Below are positions 13,046 to 26,314 of a stretch of 31,686 nucleotides of DNA, in pieces. The notes below the pieces were generated by a model. The model was not told the origin of the DNA. It searched no databases and saw only the letters and a program-made list of their open reading frames with translations. Both the position numbers and the translations under genes were made by a program. The stretch covers positions 1 through 31,686 of IMG/VR virus record IMGVR_UViG_3300021379_002068; one strand, 5' to 3'. Position 1 is the first letter of the stretch. Each line of letters starts with the position of its first letter. Source of the DNA: a virus.

Positions 13046-13840
13046 TTAATCCTCTATTAGAATTTTATTTTCCTTGTTGCTTTTGATCCCGTCCAATGTT
13101 TTTAACAGCCTGTCATAAGTTATTCTAGCTCGCGTGCTACAGAAATCCTTGGTCTGCTTAATTCTAATTATTTTCCAACCCTTACCAATAATTAGACCTT
13201 CTTTTTTTCTGTCATATTTTTTATTTTTTTGCAGGGTTTCCTCTCCCCATACTGGTAGAAAATGTGACGGTCCATCCACCTCTATAACCACATCCATAGT
13301 AGGCAGAAAAAGGTCAAGTTGCAATTTGGTATTTGATAGGACTTGCTCCTTATGAAAATCTACTCTGTATCCATCTTTTATCAGATGCTCTAAAATAAAT
13401 TTTTCCAACTTAGACCCTAAAACACTTGCTGTTCTAACAGCCATATTAGCCTTTTTAAGCATCTCCTGTTTTTTATTTTCTGGTATGCTTTCCCAGCGTT
13501 TTTTCTGTTGGTTTTTTCTTTCTTTTAGCTGCTTATCGCTTAAGGATGACCAAGAATCCATCATGCTTTTACCTATTTTTTGTTTAGTGCTTTCGTTTCT
13601 TTCTGTGCCTTTTGTCGGATGTTTGTGAGTTCCGGTAGATAGTGCGTTCTTTTGTGCTTCTGATTTAGTTCTGATAGGTATATTAAATTTTTTTGCATCT
13701 CTTCTGATTTTATTAGCATATGTATTTAGTTCATTTGCTATTTGCCCGAAACTTTTCTTCTCTTCTTTATACATTTTTCTAATATACTCAGCTTTTAAAT
13801 TTTCTGGCATATCATTGTACGAATTTTTGAATTTGCTCAT
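13046..13840 (-). CDS. HTH plus PD-(D/E)XK-type endonuclease
   Basis: The start is taken at ATG 13840 (MSKFKNSYNDM) because GGAGA lies 9 bases upstream; the longer frame to 13888 overlaps the preceding gene more. The N-terminal third is helix-turn-helix-like (IRKMYKEEKKSFGQIANEL). A NUMOD3-like segment, HPTKGTERNESTKQKIGKSM, follows, then a charged helical linker. The last ~110 residues form a restriction-endonuclease-like fold: SKLEKFILEHL, then LQLDLFLP with the acidic residue, then VVIEVDGPSHF, then a beta strand WKIIRIKQT. This order (E, D, E-x-D, Gln/Lys) matches VSR/DUF559-like nucleases. NUMOD segments are usual in homing endonucleases, so it may be a mobile nuclease, although no intron or intein is seen next to it. 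It overlaps the upstream gene by 29 bases. Confidence 0.75.
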   Translation of the reverse strand: MSKFKNSYNDMPENLKAEYIRKMYKEEKKSFGQIANELNTYANKIRRDAKKFNIPIRTKSEAQKNALSTGTHKHPTKGTERNESTKQKIGKSMMDSWSSLSDKQLKERKNQQKKRWESIPENKKQEMLKKANMAVRTASVLGSKLEKFILEHLIKDGYRVDFHKEQVLSNTKLQLDLFLPTMDVVIEVDGPSHFLPVWGEETLQKNKKYDRKKEGLIIGKGWKIIRIKQTKDFCSTRARITYDRLLKTLDGIKSNKENKILIED

Positions 13841-14264
13841 AATTAAATGTCTCCATAATTCCAGTAGTATTTTGCCAGCACAACGCATAAATATCCGAAA
13901 GTTCTTGACTATTCGCCACTATATTCAAATCAGGGTTAGATAGCAAACTTTCCCATCTTCTATAATCGGTGTAATTGGAAACCCAAGGTGTGTTATTGGT
14001 ATAAAAATATGCGTTGCAAACATTGAAGGCGTTAGAGAATTGTAAACCTTCTATGTTAAAAAACCATAGATCTCCATCAAAATATTTAGCATAGTCCATG
14101 TGTAACACGGGTATAGAATTGTTAATAGGAACGTCAACTGAACTGCCAAAAACCACATAGTGATTGCAATGATCTTTTGTGATGATATCTTCAATACCAC
14201 GCATTATATTCTGTATATGTGGATCATTGTCTATATGTAGTATTAAAAAACCTATATTTTTCAT
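13812..14264 (-). CDS. Unknown protein at the end of the glycan cluster
   Basis: 150 residues starting MKNIGFLILHIDNDPH. The ATG overlaps the preceding stop as ATGA. No catalytic motif is recognised. It has alternating hydrophobic strands (VVFGSSVDVP, DLWFFNIEG) and a Trp/Tyr-rich middle (TPWVSNYTDYRRWESLL). The end, ALCWQNTTGIMETFN, recalls small proteins in phage glycosyltransferase clusters, from memory. Strand-helix alternation would suit half of a GT-B or Rossmann-like fold. Coupling to the cluster suggests a role in the same glycan pathway, but this is inference. Confidence 0.55.
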   Translation of the reverse strand: MKNIGFLILHIDNDPHIQNIMRGIEDIITKDHCNHYVVFGSSVDVPINNSIPVLHMDYAKYFDGDLWFFNIEGLQFSNAFNVCNAYFYTNNTPWVSNYTDYRRWESLLSNPDLNIVANSQELSDIYALCWQNTTGIMETFNYEQIQKFVQ

Positions 14265-20797: not shown

Positions 20798-20826
20798 ATT
20801 ATAACACATCGACACTTCGATGTCAA
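20798..20826 (-). promoter_or_regulatory. Perfect consensus sigma-70 promoter for ssb
   Basis: On the minus strand, TTGACA (20826-20821) and TATAAT (20803-20798) are both exact consensus boxes, separated by exactly 17 bases. Transcription would start near 20790, about 28 bases before the ssb ATG and just upstream of its ribosome site. The -35 box overlaps the stop codon of the C-terminal polymerase gene. It implies use of the host vegetative RNA polymerase and high, probably early, expression of ssb separately from the upstream operon. Confidence 0.85.
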
Positions 20827-20833
20827 GACATCG
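20806..20833. promoter_or_regulatory. Two overlapping palindromes, possible operator
   Basis: ACATCGA-CACT-TCGATGT (20806-20823) has perfect 7-bp arms and fills the spacer and -35 box of the ssb promoter. CGATGTC-AA-GACATCG (20818-20833) is a second perfect 7-bp inverted repeat sharing one arm. Three half-sites of the type ACATCG in alternating orientation would suit a dimeric repressor that blocks polymerase. The second repeat could instead be a short hairpin at the end of the polymerase transcript. No cognate regulator gene was recognised in this window. Confidence 0.5.
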
Positions 20834-22460
20834 GTTCAAAACACTTTTCTACTATAAAAGAGTCTTTATTCTTGTTTTTTTGTCCCATGAAAATTAACAC
20901 ATTTCCTGGCGTAAGATTATTTCTAAAAATGGAGAACTGATCAGGAAAAAGTACGACTGAATCTATGGAACCACTTTGGTCCTGCACTGTAACAAATGCC
21001 ATTTCCTTTCCTGGAGTTTTTCCCTTTTTTGTTTTAACGATATTGATATCTGTAATTTCTGCCGCTAATATTATTTTTTTGCTTACAGGATCGTTCTTAA
21101 ACAGTTTGCAATCGCTATTAGTCATGCTAATGTCATAACTGTCGATTTTGGAACAGCTAATACTTGTACCCAAAAGTTCATGCTCCATATCTGATAGCCA
21201 CTCTATCTTGTCTTCTAGAGAATAAGGCGGATTGTTTAAATTATTAATAGAATCTTGTATGATTGATTTTCTGTTTTTATTAATCTTTATATTATTATCA
21301 CTGAGTAAGTTTTTTAAGATTTCTTTCAGTTTTGACTCGGCAGTTGTACTAAAATCAAAATTATTGATAACATATGCCTTCTCTTTGTTTGTTAAAATAT
21401 TTATTGTCTCAAGTTCCAGCAACATTGTTGTTCTTGTTTTTTTGGTATAATCTAACGCACCAGACATAATGAGAGATTTAGCAGCATTCACATTGATATT
21501 AGATAGAATTTTAAATGATACCTCTATACCGTTATTTAGGTTGATGTTATCGTATTCATTGATCAGTTTATTGATTTTTTGAAAGACGGATAGTCCTACT
21601 CCTTTTATGTCAGTAAGCCCAAAATAAATCTTTTTATCTCTTAGGGTGAATAGTTGATTTTTTAATCTCAGGTCTGGATTTGACACATAGATGTCCATCT
21701 CTAAGGCATTTCGGACCAATTCTTTTATCTCTTGGTGAGGGTCTATTTTATCCTTAGCAAATCTGAGATATGACGCAAAGAATATCCTAGGAAAATGACA
21801 TTTAGTATATGCTGAAAGATAAGCGTTGATAGCGTATGATATAGCATGGCTCTTATTAAAAGAATATCTCTGACTTTTTTCTATCCAACCAAATATCTCT
21901 TTTGCTTCATCGCTGTTGACAACATCAACCTTCTTGCATCCTCTGATAAACTTTTTTTTGATTTTTGCCATTTCTTCTGGTTTCTTTTTTCCGATAGCTT
22001 TTCTTAACATATCGGCTTCCTGTAGGTCGAAACCCGCAATGGTTTGCACTATCTGCATAGCCTGTTCCTGATATATCATTTCTCCATAAGTGTTTTCTAA
22101 AATAGGACGTAGAGACTCATGATAGTAATCGATAGATTCTTCACCGTTTTTTTTATCAATATAGTGATTACTCACATTTTTGCCGTCTCTAACAGCTTCT
22201 AAGCAACCTGGTCTCAAGATACTAATTAAGGCAGCTAACTGTTCTATATTTTCTGGTTTTAGCTTTTTAGCCATCATCTGACCAAGCCTGGACTCAAGCT
22301 GAAAACACCCTTTAGTGTTGCCAGATCCTATTAGATCCCAGCATAGCTTGCACTCTAAATTAATGCCCTCCACATTTGGATCAAAATCAATCAAAGGATG
22401 ATCATGTGTTTTACTGATCATATCAAAACTGCAGCCACATGGAAATTTATAACGATCCAT
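20823..22460 (-). CDS. dnaE: DNA polymerase III alpha subunit, C-terminal half
   Basis: 545 residues; AAGGA lies 5 bases before the ATG. It lines up with bacterial DnaE from just after the third catalytic Asp. It opens with CFQLESRLGQMM (about 52-63), then LISILRPG, then ENTYGEMIYQEQAMQI (about 122-137). These are followed by ADMLRKAIGKKKPEEMAK and RYSFNKSHAISYA (198-210, fingers), then IYFGLTDIKGVG (helix-hairpin-helix region). It ends with a C-terminal OB-fold starting near KKIILAAEITDI. The first 45 residues are unusual: Cys 8, 10, 37 and 40 (CGC and CKLC) suggest a small zinc site right at the split. The tau-binding C-terminal domain seems absent. On its own it has no catalytic triad, so it must work with the N-terminal half (23364-25244). 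Confidence 0.9.
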   Translation of the reverse strand: MDRYKFPCGCSFDMISKTHDHPLIDFDPNVEGINLECKLCWDLIGSGNTKGCFQLESRLGQMMAKKLKPENIEQLAALISILRPGCLEAVRDGKNVSNHYIDKKNGEESIDYYHESLRPILENTYGEMIYQEQAMQIVQTIAGFDLQEADMLRKAIGKKKPEEMAKIKKKFIRGCKKVDVVNSDEAKEIFGWIEKSQRYSFNKSHAISYAINAYLSAYTKCHFPRIFFASYLRFAKDKIDPHQEIKELVRNALEMDIYVSNPDLRLKNQLFTLRDKKIYFGLTDIKGVGLSVFQKINKLINEYDNINLNNGIEVSFKILSNINVNAAKSLIMSGALDYTKKTRTTMLLELETINILTNKEKAYVINNFDFSTTAESKLKEILKNLLSDNNIKINKNRKSIIQDSINNLNNPPYSLEDKIEWLSDMEHELLGTSISCSKIDSYDISMTNSDCKLFKNDPVSKKIILAAEITDINIVKTKKGKTPGKEMAFVTVQDQSGSIDSVVLFPDQFSIFRNNLTPGNVLIFMGQKNKNKDSFIVEKCFEPMS

Positions 22461-22481
22461 TATAGTCCTTAAACAAATATA

Positions 22482-23177
22482 TTAAGCCAAAAAAGAATTC
22501 TTAAATTTGATTTTTGCACAGAGGTTTCTGTGAAGTCTGAGGAATCTTATCATTATTTCTGCGGTATCCTTCACATCTTTTAGAGCGTCATGAGCCCCGT
22601 CTTTATCGATACCAAAATAGTCTCTAAGATTATCCAGAGTATAGTTTTTTAGTTCAGTATTACCTTCAAACCAATAGAATATAATATGCATTATATCTAT
22701 CATATCTCTCGGATAAAAAATATTTGACTTGTTTTCCTTCTTGTCTATATTTCCATATTTTTGAGATAGCCTGTCTGTTATTTTTAAGTCAAATCTGTTG
22801 ATATTATAGCCTGCAGCTATAGGAGCTGTAAACATACTTTTCTTACTTTTACGAATGTGATAAAGATCTAAGTATGACATAAACATTTTCCAGCCCTGTT
22901 CCTGTTTCTGGTATCCTTGCCAGGCTTTGAGGATGTCCTGTGAAGAACACCCTCGCACCTTGGCATGAAAATCTAGAACATCAGAGTCAGAATAATCATA
23001 ATCATTATCTGTTTCTAGTTTTTCTGGTTTTAGAGATATGTTAAATTCTGAATCTTTAACTATCTCAAGTTTCTTAGGGTCCACAATTACAGCAGCAATT
23101 TGAACCGGACTACATACTGAAGGATTGGCTCCGTCAGTTTCTAAATCAAAAACACAAATTTTCTGTATATTAGCCAT
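22482..23177 (-). CDS. DEDDh 3'-5' exonuclease (proofreading, epsilon-like)
   Basis: 231 residues, overlapping the upstream small gene by 8 bases. All four DEDDh acidic positions and the catalytic His are visible: FDLETDG (Asp 11, Glu 13), GYNINRFDLK (Asp 130), and GAHDALKDVKDTAEI (His 196, Asp 201). This is the DnaQ/epsilon family, which removes mispaired 3' ends during synthesis. The extra length over a minimal domain lies mainly between the first and second motifs. It sits between the two halves of the polymerase, which strongly suggests it is the dedicated proofreader of that enzyme. A clamp-binding motif was not recognised. Confidence 0.9.
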   Translation of the reverse strand: MANIQKICVFDLETDGANPSVCSPVQIAAVIVDPKKLEIVKDSEFNISLKPEKLETDNDYDYSDSDVLDFHAKVRGCSSQDILKAWQGYQKQEQGWKMFMSYLDLYHIRKSKKSMFTAPIAAGYNINRFDLKITDRLSQKYGNIDKKENKSNIFYPRDMIDIMHIIFYWFEGNTELKNYTLDNLRDYFGIDKDGAHDALKDVKDTAEIMIRFLRLHRNLCAKIKFKNSFLA

Positions 23178-23361
23178 TTTCCTTTAAAATCTGAACTGGG
23201 GTACTGTCCTTAAAAAAAGCTCTTTTTGATGCGTTGGAGGATTCTTGACAATTAATAGATTTACAGCAAGTAATTTTGGTATTCTTTAGCTTGGTATATT
23301 CTTTATCGTTCACATAAAAAACTTGACCAACTTTAAGGGAACCGAAGGTAGTATTTATCAT
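23170..23361 (-). CDS. Small conserved phage protein (CCKSIN type)
   Basis: 63 residues, starting at ATG 23361 (MINTTFGSLKVGQ), directly after the TAA of the N-terminal polymerase gene. A longer frame to 23397 overlaps that gene and is less likely. The order is LKVGQVFYVNDKEYTKL, then ITCCKSINCQ, then a short ending PVQIL. I recall many small phage proteins with this build (strand, hydrophobic turn, CCKS[IV]N) without a known role. It probably forms a small beta barrel. Its place inside the split polymerase operon could mean it helps the polymerase, but such proteins also occur away from polymerases. Confidence 0.65.
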   Translation of the reverse strand: MINTTFGSLKVGQVFYVNDKEYTKLKNTKITCCKSINCQESSNASKRAFFKDSTPVQILKENG

Positions 23362-23363
23362 TT

Positions 23364-25244
23364 TTATGCTCCGTTTTTTAACAAATCTGAAATACACATA
23401 ATTTTGTCAAGCATTGCGATACCGAGAACATCAAACTTGATAACACCTATGCTTTCCAGATCCTGCATCTCCATACCTGCTATGGTTTGTTTGTTTTTAG
23501 TATCATATACCATCGGACATACCGAGTCAAGGCTTGACTTACTAATAACTACACCGGCAGCATGCTTGGATTGATTGGATTTTGTTCCTTCTAATCGTAT
23601 AGCTTGTTCAAATCTTTTTGCTAAAGGGCCTAATAATTCACCATTTTTGTCTTTATAGCACCATTGTTTTAATTGGTCGGCATGATTTTCGAGTGTCCAT
23701 TTTATGATAGAAGATTCTCCAGTGGCTTCTTTCATTTCTTGTAAACTATCAGCAATTTTAGCTTCATCGGGAATGTTCTTTGTTATATCGTTCATTTCTT
23801 GGAATGAAATATTTCCATACACTCTAAGTACCTCTTTTAATGCGCCTCTACCTTTCATAGTATTGAATGTTATCATTTGAGATACTTTATCATGTCCATA
23901 CTTACCTTTTATGTATTCAATAACATCCTCTCTTTTATTAATTGGTACGTCGATATCTATATCTGGCATGGAAACCCTGCCATTGGTATTCCTTCCTGCA
24001 TTATAAAATCTTTCAAAGATCAATTGATATTTTATCGGGTCAATACTAGTTATTCCGATCAGATAAGACACCAAACACCCTGCTGCCGATCCTCTTCCCG
24101 GACCCGGTAACCAATTATTACCAGAAACATACCTTACTATATCTTGGACTATTAGGAAGTAACTCGACAGATCAGCGCCCTGCAAAACTCCGAGTTCATA
24201 TTTAATCCTATTTACATATTCTTCGTGATATTGTTTGTCTACATTATTTTGTATTTTTTCTAACCATCCATCACGACATAGTTGCCTTAGGTATTCATCT
24301 GGCCCACCCTGATCTGAGCAATCAAATTTTGGTAGTTGTGGTTGAGATAATATATTGTATTCTTCACACATGCTGTTAATGAGATTAGTATTTTCTATCT
24401 CTTCTTTTGTGTGATAATTAAACATTTCCTCAGTCGATAATATATGAAAATTATCAGACTGAAAAAAACAAGACATTGGCACCTTTTCATCATTAACTAT
24501 TTTTCTATTTATCTCATTCATGGTGGTGCGCAGATTATTACACAATAATATCCGTTGATCGAAGGCATCCTCTTTTTTACAATAGTGCGCATCTGGGGTG
24601 GCTACTATTTTAGTATTAGTGGTCTTTGACAACTCTCTTAGCATATTTGTTATTTCTATTTGTTCTGGATTATGCTCACTATCCATAAGTTGAGATTCTA
24701 AGAAAAAATTATCTTTACCAAACATAGCATTAAGTCTTGAGATTTCATTCAGTAGATTATCTCTAATATTAGCTTTGGCTAGTTTTGCCTTATGTGCCAA
24801 ATAAGAACCAAGATGTCCACATATACCGATTATGTTATTATCCAAAAGTTGTGCCAGCTTATCTATATCAAGCCTCGGTTTGTGGTAAAAATTTTCTGGC
24901 TTATTAGATTCGGAAACTATTTTTATAAGAGTTTTCCAGCCCTCATAATTTTTTGCTAAAACAACAAAATGACTCAATATAGAATTTTCAACGTCTTTAA
25001 TTGAACTATCTTGATCACATATATATAGTTCGCAACCAAGTATAGGTTTAATATTCTTGGCCTTCATTTGTTGATAAAACTGAACAGCACCAGATATAGA
25101 TCCATGATCTGTAATGGCACAAGTAGTCGATCCAATTTGAGCACACCTATTTGCAATATCTATAGGCTTGCTTAGTCCATCCAATAGAGAGTAGTGTGAT
25201 CTCTAGGAATGGACATGAAGAGGCGTGTATGCCGTCATGTCCAT
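23364..25244 (-). CDS. dnaE: DNA polymerase III alpha subunit, N-terminal half, with an in-frame TAG
   Basis: The open part runs from TTG 25184 (606 codons), but the expected start is ATG 25244, with AAGGGA 8 bases upstream. From there the frame reads MDMTAYTPLHVHS, TAG (25203-25205), RS, then HYSLLDGLSKP. The PHP domain continues with ITDHGSISGA, PILGCELYI, ICGHLGSYL and TPDAHY. The polymerase core follows (numbering from 25184): GPGRGSAAG (361-369), MPDIDID with catalytic Asp 408 and 410, KHAAGVVIS, and VIKFDVLG with Asp 585. These equal Asp 401, 403 and 555 of E. coli DnaE. The protein ends 21 residues later. There is no intein or fingers domain; the rest is encoded at 20823-22460. Whether the product starts at 25244 by recoding, or at an internal codon without the HVH motif, cannot be decided here. 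Confidence 0.88.
25185..25205 (-). other. Short hairpin beginning at the in-frame TAG
   Basis: In the mRNA of the polymerase gene, TAGAGA (25205-25200) pairs perfectly with TCTCTA (25190-25185) around a 9-base loop. The stem starts with the in-frame stop codon itself. It may be chance in AT-rich DNA, but its exact placement makes it a candidate recoding element. Confidence 0.35.
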
Positions 25245-25245: not shown

Positions 25246-25270
25246 ACAATTATCCCTTCTATATAAAAAA

Positions 25271-25717
25271 TTATTCGGTTGTACCAGGGGCTTTGTATTT
25301 GTCAAACTCATGCCCTTTGTTCTTATATATAGTAAGCACCTGATCGATGCCGTAAAGATCGATATCATGCTTTATCTGCTCGCACTTAGTCATATATTCG
25401 CCTACGCCGCATATTTGATTCTCTCTATACTCAAGCATTGGTTGAATATGTGTATTTTCAAACGTGGTTTTGCCAAAATGACACAATTTTTTACACATCC
25501 ATGTTTTCTTCAGTTTTGGTTTTTTTGTCGCTTTAATAACATCAAACTTATCTTTCAATAAACGTTCTGTAGAATACAAGTCCGAATCTTCGAAACATAT
25601 AGAGTATGGACCACCATCGTTAATAAAATATATAGAAAAAATCACATGCTTGATATGTGGATATATTTTTTTAATGGCATAATGATATATTTTAAGCTGT
25701 GGATCATGTTCTAGTTT
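25271..25717 (-). CDS. C-terminal part of an interrupted RecB/Cas4-like nuclease
   Basis: This segment lies in the same frame as the nuclease at 25718-26314 and follows its TAA directly. It begins KLEHDPQLKIYHYAIKK and continues YFINDGGPYSICFED, so it reads as the normal next strands of that protein. An independent start could only be the GTG at 25645, without a ribosome site. Conserved cysteines WMCKKLCHFG and CGVGEYMTKCEQ, together with Cys 17 of the first part, resemble the four-Cys arrangement that holds an iron-sulfur cluster in Cas4 and AddB-type nucleases. It ends KYKAPGTTE. I treat both parts as one gene of about 347 codons, split by a nonsense codon or read through. Confidence 0.7.
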   Translation of the reverse strand, partial: KLEHDPQLKIYHYAIKKIYPHIKHVIFSIYFINDGGPYSICFEDSDLYSTERLLKDKFDVIKATKKPKLKKTWMCKKLCHFGKTTFENTHIQPMLEYRENQICGVGEYMTKCEQIKHDIDLYGIDQVLTIYKNKGHEFDKYKAPGTTE

Positions 25718-26314
25718 TTATTGAGTTTTCTCTTCTCCCGTAGCCCAGTTGAGCCTTCTGCCTGTTTTCCAATCTATGATTTCTATAGTGTCTTCATTTG
25801 GTTGTGTTATAAGATCTATTGTACCTTTTAACGAAAGATATCCATCGATTTTCTTATCTCCTATATCATATTTATATTTAGCCCAAGGTTTTTCTATGGT
25901 AAAATCAAACATTTGCTCTGGATATAGAATATTTTTATTTCTTGGGTCAAACATACCATCATTAAAAGTTATTGCTTTATTGATCCAATCGGCACAGTCC
26001 TGCCTATCTTTTTTAGTCCATGAGTGATGCTGCGTATTCTCTGTATAATAATCATAAACTTTATTATATATGATAGACAGGTCGTAATTATTCACATCTA
26101 TATCGCCCGCTATGTCGTCATTATATATTTTAATATTGTCTTGTTGGTATTTCTTTATAAAAGCTAATATCTCTAGAGCTTTATGGACTATAGTACCCTT
26201 GTCTGCCTTCTTGCCCGATGGACCCCTCCAACCCAGATTATATTCGATAAAATATTGCTGCTGACACATATCATGAGCATTATAGCTCGATGATCTGAAA
26301 TATGTAATAATCAT
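25718..26314 (-). CDS. PD-(D/E)XK nuclease of the RecB/Cas4 type, N-terminal part
   Basis: 198 codons from ATG 26314, overlapping the upstream kinase stop as ATGA. SSSYNAHDMCQQQYF starts the family pattern (Cys 17 as possible cluster ligand). GTIVHKALEIL gives the His-containing motif, and LKGTIDLIT (Asp 167) and EIIDWKTGRR (Asp 181, Lys 183) are the catalytic core. Such enzymes trim DNA ends in recombination or packaging-related repair. The frame stops at TAA 25718-25720 after GEEKTQ. In homologs that I remember, this place reads GEEKTYEKL, so the TAA falls where a Glu codon is usual. A single GAA to TAA change would explain it. The catalytic residues are all in this part, but the cysteines and last strands are beyond the stop. 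Confidence 0.8.
   Translation of the reverse strand: MIITYFRSSSYNAHDMCQQQYFIEYNLGWRGPSGKKADKGTIVHKALEILAFIKKYQQDNIKIYNDDIAGDIDVNNYDLSIIYNKVYDYYTENTQHHSWTKKDRQDCADWINKAITFNDGMFDPRNKNILYPEQMFDFTIEKPWAKYKYDIGDKKIDGYLSLKGTIDLITQPNEDTIEIIDWKTGRRLNWATGEEKTQ

Follow-up and report, generated by a model that had tools for sequence, protein, structure and literature searches.

How does a virus make its replicative DNA polymerase when the gene for the catalytic half carries an in-frame stop codon close to its start? The question is raised by a 31,686-nt stretch of DNA from an uncultured bacterial virus (IMG/VR record IMGVR_UViG_3300021379_002068; hereafter, the window), which encodes a DnaE-type replicative Pol III alpha subunit as two genes, one (N) for PHP and palm and one (C) for fingers, helix-hairpin-helix (HhH), and OB. 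The N gene (23364-25244) is not open: it reads MDMTAYTPLHVHS, an in-frame TAG (25205-25203), and then RSHYSLLDGLSKP. Translated across the stop, the window gives MDMTAYTPLHVHS, stop, RSHYSLLDG, with the TAG following the PHP motif PLHVHS, and the longest standard N open reading frame (ORF), which begins at TTG 25184, does not include PHP motif I. A first-pass annotation of this DNA had assigned PHP and all three catalytic aspartates to 23364-25244, as we also find, but had taken the frame to be uninterrupted by reading through the TAG. We propose that the interruption is a mobile programmed ribosome-bypass cassette resembling that of T4 gene 60, a reading that, from comparison of sequences, we hold at a probability of roughly three in four.

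Two scans of IMG/VR yielded about 150 loci whose N or C is 56-76% identical to that of the window (denoted below by L numbers). In these relatives, the interruption lies at a single homologous site, where it separates PLHVHS from HYSLLDG. HVHS-HYSLLDG is uninterrupted in 117/225 N starts, while 108/225 have an insert right behind the Ser codon, counts to which overlapping loci and a gap-enriching pattern search both contributed; in a sample collected by homology only, 39/156 N starts are gapped, leaving roughly three-quarters of homologues uninterrupted. Inserts measure 8-12 nt, start with TAA or TAG, end in NC[TAC], and are followed by CAY or ATG. The window's insert, TAG AGA TCA between TCC and CAC, has 9 nt. 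Among 46 distinct cassettes, gaps of 8, 9, 10, 11, and 12 nt occur 3, 9, 15, 18, and 1 times, respectively, and the downstream reading frame (ORF2) is found in all three frames relative to the leader (ORF1). A stop follows the Ser codon, which we call the take-off codon, in 46/46 cassettes; this position is never a sense codon and never UGA.

The N-gene interruption is not noise: in real genes of the same loci, we found just two further frame breaks and a single further in-frame stop. This further stop is a single TAA (25720-25718) in the Cas4-like gene of the window, where relatives have a sense codon. We considered this TAA as a second bypass site and rejected it: relatives read an ungapped EKTQEKLE or a close variant there, which makes the TAA a lone nonsense change or an error. 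Genome-wide reading of TAG as Gln was also ruled out: both TAG and TAA serve as normal gene ends, the stop in the Cas4-like gene is TAA rather than TAG, and relatives have out-of-frame gaps. Further bypass sites were sought up to 10 kb from N and in four near-complete genomes, and none was clear; the comparison returned mostly antisense ORFs. Nor did four genomes contain a phage tRNA-Ser that reads UCN.

We examined selection on both sides of the gap. The YVPL codons of the leader have a ratio of nonsynonymous to synonymous variation (pN/pS) of 0.21 in the ORF1 frame, compared to 0.72 and 2.1 in the other frames. Together with the Shine-Dalgarno site ahead of the leader, this ratio indicates that ORF1 is translated. 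Past the gap, the PHP ligands (D-H, E, H, H, E, and D-A-H) are kept in 57/57 distinct gapped proteins and 73/73 contiguous proteins, and the gapped proteins retain every PHP and palm motif, with an internal stop in none. Since the ligands in ORF2 are invariant, motif I of the leader must be joined to the rest. These features suggest a coding sequence that is interrupted although both sides are needed for one product, as expected of bypass. Excess synonymous identity ends right behind the LDG codons, past the hairpin described below, indicating local, functional constraint rather than a long recent transfer tract. The same comparison revealed no long co-conversion tracts around the cassette.

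Two abutting RNA hairpins, a 5′ stem-loop (SL1) and a take-off stem-loop (SL2), are both present in every interrupted form. In SL1, ATGGAC[G/A]TG pairs with CA[C/T]GTCCAT across cassettes, and 99.2% of cells are paired. At its pair 7, the 46 cassettes have GC (27), AU (16), or GU (3) and no mismatches, while shuffled pairings are 80% paired. In SL2, the 5′ arm starts with the stop codon, the 3′ arm falls in the Y-S-L codons, and the landing site is in the loop. Using explicit registers defined from the 5′ arm alone, we found 98.2% of SL2 cells paired, compared to 88.6% in shuffles (maximum 93.8% of 2000). SL2 also has 18 double changes, compared to a shuffled mean of 3.0 and a maximum of 11, a covariation that, like that in SL1, is non-circular. 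Minimum free energy z-scores average -4.30 for gapped sequences (46/46 below -1.5) and +0.37 for contiguous ones (n = 67; Mann-Whitney p 2e-19). RNAalifold run on a MAFFT alignment recovered SL1 alone because SL2 has two registers that MAFFT cannot align. The cassette had no match in Rfam.

In the mechanism that we envisage, ribosomes would start at the ATG behind the Shine-Dalgarno sequence and make M...PLHVHS, as the sequence and its codon selection suggest. At the UCY take-off codon, where the next codon is UAA or UAG, the hairpin whose 5′ strand starts at the stop codon could fold, consistent with its covariation. Rather than terminating, the peptidyl-tRNA-Ser would release, and the mRNA would slide by 8-12 nt. 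The tRNA would then re-pair with NC[UAC] in the hairpin loop, and H (or M)-YSLLDG would be read, in any frame. By analogy with T4 gene 60, SL1 may re-form as the ribosome moves, pulling it forward. The product would contain the junction PLHVHSHYSLLDG, with the gap residues absent. Given gaps in all three frames, bypass is the only single mechanism that fits. With slightly less confidence, we think it probable that these loci represent a second natural phage bypass family that is mobile, has dozens of alleles, slides 8-12 nt from a Ser codon and stop into a hairpin loop, is aided by mRNA structure instead of a long nascent peptide, and resides in the catalytic half of a replicative DNA polymerase.

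Several points weigh against programmed bypass. We infer both the bypass and the junction peptide from the genes. Take-off and landing codons do not always match: landing is on a Ser UCN codon in 29/46 cassettes, but in 17/46 the landing triplet is ACU or GCU/GCC (UCC to ACU in 10/46, GCU or GCC in 7/46), a mismatch unlike gene 60. The nascent chain is just 13-14 residues, too short for a tunnel signal of the gene 60 type; most leaders have a basic residue at positions 4-6. The landing triplet lies inside a hairpin loop, a geometry for which we know of no precedent. Finally, most gapped loci, including the window, have no adjacent endonuclease.

We weighed these points alongside other explanations. 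Translation could terminate, releasing a 14-aa peptide, and restart at the TTG of SLLDG or the ATG of MYS; the resulting polymerase half would lack PHP motif I, and the hairpins would have a regulatory role. Consistent with restart, a TTG lies at codon 5 past the gap in 43/46 cassettes, an ATG lies right behind the gap in 12, and the stop and hairpin are close to the candidate start. However, TTG is the commonest codon at that position in contiguous genes too, L011 and L111 have no in-frame ATG, GTG, or TTG for 43 codons, and neither the conservation of PLHVHS in the leader nor the invariance of the PHP ligands would be needed; we regard re-initiation as unlikely. A little less likely still is conventional recoding, in which 9-nt and 12-nt gaps would be crossed by stop readthrough and all others by -1 or +1 frameshifting. 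Although the window gap is in frame (readthrough product HVHS-X-RS-HYSLLDG) and a shifted frame is open in several other alleles, three different mechanisms would be required at one homologous site, and three alleles (L030, L169, and L174) meet a second stop after a +1 shift. Moreover, recoding would place 3-4 extra residues in the PHP motif I loop that are absent from all uninterrupted homologues.

Removal of the 8-12 nt from the mRNA by a splicing-endonuclease-like or other hairpin-reading activity would account for a seamless product, structured borders, and variable length. We consider such excision improbable, as no bacterial system is known to do so, the insert is shorter than any self-splicing intron and lacks an Rfam match, and removal of RNA gives no reason for a stop exactly behind the last codon. 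That the N gene is simply broken, as a pseudogene or through sequencing error, with a host or second phage polymerase used instead, is hardly credible. The in-frame stop in the Cas4-like gene of the window could be taken as a sign of such decay, but error-like breaks are almost absent elsewhere in the loci, the N-gene interruption occurs only at a single structured site and appears repeatedly on the tree, ORF2 is not under relaxed selection in gapped lineages, and all PHP and palm motifs persist, free of internal stops, in the 57 gapped proteins.

The proposed bypass cassette is very likely mobile, judging from recurrent state changes on the polymerase tree and from its association with homing endonuclease genes (HEGs). 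On an N tree of 130 rows, the gapped state takes 24 changes; on a thinned tree of 74 proteins, there are 20 state changes, compared to a shuffled mean of 22.8 (minimum 18). Gapped and ungapped genes are interleaved on the tree, and monophyly of the gapped genes is rejected (approximately unbiased test, p 5e-90). Some gapped loci have an endonuclease ORF of 240 aa (phrog_3322/374, HNH/endonuclease VII-like) that ends ~20 nt ahead of the take-off site. The HEG at the cassette is full-length in L164, L174/L210, L186, L195, L198, and L216 and fragmentary in L169, L175/L192/L208/L226, and L197/L214/L219. A scan for the endonuclease revealed five full-length relatives with >55% identity, 5/5 of them beside a gapped N gene, while none of the contiguous loci has a HEG at this position. 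The tie between HEG and insert holds for a minority of gapped loci. AAGGAG is provided by the last HEG codons; where the HEG is absent, this sequence is retained and looks like a relic. We suggest that the insert spreads and is lost with the free-standing HNH homing endonuclease found upstream in some relatives and that it would shield the target from endonuclease cleavage. Elsewhere in the window, an HNH/homing-endonuclease-like gene (phrog_559, phrog_9084) occupies 13046-13888. Another HNH endonuclease relative lies between N and the small protein in L027 (8430-9089), L157, and L184.

The N gene is fragmented further in some relatives. In L025, L031, L037, and L040-L043, a free-standing LAGLIDADG gene splits it just ahead of PDIDID. 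In L031 (6120-9113), one part contains PHP and early palm (432 aa) and the other PDIDID and later palm (294 aa), with a new N-terminal extension of ~90 aa. Alpha in these loci is thus predicted to be in three chains, with the palm divided. In L192 (6127-7457), an insert between PGRG and SAAG has an intein-like start (CFLPDSRVLTPSGE) and an end reading GIAVHN, with a stop and another ORF between. The PGRG/S site is also interrupted in L175, L226, L210, and L164. The inserts at this site resemble a split intein that holds an additional gene. Both the LAGLIDADG split and the PGRG/S insert lend support to a picture in which this gene is broken by endonucleases and the phages tolerate the breaks. 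The first-pass statement that neither half has an intein is accurate for the window, where sequence and profile scans found none, including at the ends of the N and C genes, but does not extend to relatives, which have the split intein or LAGLIDADG gene within N. We also observed a LAGLIDADG-containing intein within the Cas4-like nuclease gene of L031 (4135-6123), L025, L037, L040-L052, and L155, and a predicted transfer-messenger RNA gene (tag GKTSLALAA; L295, 15237-15586) in the gapped 201-kb phage record G009.

The division of alpha between two genes, with the proofreader between them, had been recognized in the first-pass annotation and is confirmed by profiles, gene order, and the same split in relatives. 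The N gene matches PF02811 (PHP; E 2e-32) and PF07733 (DNA_pol3_alpha; E 2.5e-73), and its three catalytic Asp are located in MPDIDID and KFDVLG. As the annotation had it, the C gene comprises fingers, HhH, and OB, matching PF17657 (finger; E 6e-47), PF14579 (HhH_6; E 7e-8), and, weakly, PF01336 (OB; E 2e-5). Alignment of the N half to PDB entries stops at the KFD-FLG motif of the palm, and alignment of the C gene to E. coli alpha begins at ~residue 585, which places the break in the palm-fingers linker and agrees with the annotated break after VIKFDVLG. The small protein and DEDDh exonuclease reported between the halves are likewise there. PHP, palm with three catalytic Asp, fingers, HhH, and OB are all present in homologous order over two genes; alpha is not a single polypeptide, as the window and every relative containing both halves have two ORFs. 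Since no catalytic motif is missing, the natural reading is that the halves would assemble after translation from separate chains. An N-terminal extension of ~30 aa on the C gene (window 22340-22460), also found in relatives, holds CGC...CxxC and may bind metal; it is missing from L131, L133, L134, L144, and L153.

Features of the interrupted, split alpha locus in the window
Feature	Position	Strand	Evidence
C gene of alpha (fingers, HhH, OB)	20823..22460	(-)	profile matches; alignment to E. coli alpha
DEDDh exonuclease (proofreader)	22482..23177	(-)	PF00929 E 2.6e-12; phrog_192
Small 63-aa protein	23170..23361	(-)	ORF list; ORF at same place in 171/171 loci tested
ORF2 of N gene: remaining PHP and palm	23364..25199	(-)	translation, profiles, PDB alignment
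SL2 3′ arm UCUCUA, within HYSLLDG coding sequence	25185..25190	(-)	folding, covariation
Proposed landing triplet UCA; coding resumes at CAC 25196-25194	25197..25199	(-)	always NC[UAC] in cassettes
SL2 5′ arm UAGAGA, from stop codon	25200..25205	(-)	pairs with 25185-25190
In-frame stop UAG right behind take-off codon	25203..25205	(-)	UAA 26, UAG 20 in 46 cassettes
ORF1 of N gene: MDMTAYTPLHVHS and TAG, PHP motif I (HxH)	25203..25244	(-)	translation and codon selection
Proposed take-off codon UCC (Ser)	25206..25208	(-)	UCU 29, UCC 17 in 46 cassettes
SL1 3′ arm CATGTCCAT, ending right ahead of take-off codon	25209..25217	(-)	covariation
SL1 5′ arm ATGGACATG, start codon included	25236..25244	(-)	covarying 9-bp stem
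Shine-Dalgarno-like AAGGG, 9 nt ahead of N-gene ATG	25254..25258	(-)	sequence; AAGGAG there in relatives
Cas4-like PD-(D/E)XK nuclease, directly upstream, outside cassette	25271..26314	(-)	profile

Wherever both halves share a contig, the IMG/VR relatives have the order N, small protein, exonuclease, and C, an arrangement shared by more than 150 of them. The N-C distance is about 0.86-0.95 kb in nearly all loci, and the exceptions (L027, L157, and loci in which the N gene itself is interrupted) carry an extra insertion. Because the gene order is kept, we conclude that the split is ancestral and not an artefact. An unbroken alpha gene in a close relative, named in the annotation as evidence against the split, was not found; all relatives with both halves, at identities of at least 56%, are split alike. 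Among unsplit homologues, the nearest are in bacteria (DnaE) and on gut phage contigs, at 33-35% identity; no deposited phage is above 60%. The cultured Rossellomorea phage phiT1 (PV767480) also has alpha in two chains, with an N of 574 aa, a short ORF of 49 aa, a C of 469 aa, and the break at approximately the same place. A split minimal Pol III alpha, again in two chains, has been described for jumbo phage group 2.2 (PMC7824862); there, the genes are distant and lie beside a family B polymerase, whereas in the window the halves are full-length and clustered, and an exonuclease separates them. Thus, the split polymerase is real, yet of an already known kind (phiT1, jumbo phages). Cyanobacterial DnaE is likewise made from two genes, the halves of which lie far apart. 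It differs in using a split intein and another break point, while here there is no intein at the break.

To our knowledge, programmed bypass in bacteria has been represented for decades by essentially one proven gene, and with a single gene, essential and accidental features of bypass have been inseparable by comparison until now. The 46 natural alleles, which vary in gap length, frame, stop, and landing triplet, supply that comparison together with their uninterrupted homologues, and make the bypass mechanism testable with ordinary reporters. If our reading is correct, this would be only the second well-supported phage bypass family. The locus also reveals the extent to which homing endonucleases can fragment an essential replicative polymerase.

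Among known systems, the synthetic stop-hops of E. coli (Weiss et al., 1987, via PMC5009743), in which matched codons flank a stop and ~9 nt yield one residue, resemble the cassette in the codons flanking a stop and in the ~9-nt span. These are laboratory constructs without conserved stimulatory structures, unlike the cassette. Mitochondria of Magnusiomyces capitatus contain 81 bypass inserts, described as mRNA-context-independent (PMC5009743). There, as here, short inserts are skipped in translation, and take-off and landing codons are sometimes mismatched. However, the Magnusiomyces inserts are 81 instances read by mitochondrial ribosomes, while the cassette occupies one site with a strong conserved context.

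The closest parallel is T4 gene 60, with its 50-nt programmed bypass. There, a stop follows the take-off codon and is part of a take-off stem-loop, a 5′ stem-loop is thought to pull the mRNA on re-forming, and the bypass has an endonuclease origin, with the HEG mobA (PMC5009743, PMC11194080, PMC2988022). The cassette shares with it the stop directly behind the take-off codon, the take-off stem-loop with the stop, the upstream 5′ stem-loop, a free-standing HNH endonuclease tied to the locus, and a replication gene already split in two. It differs in its gap (8-12 rather than 50 nt), leader (13-14 rather than 46 codons), and take-off codon (Ser rather than Gly), and in a landing triplet that lies in a hairpin loop and is not always matched. 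In addition, in the cassette SL1 includes the start codon, and the cassette resides in a different gene, as dozens of alleles with recurrent presence and absence.

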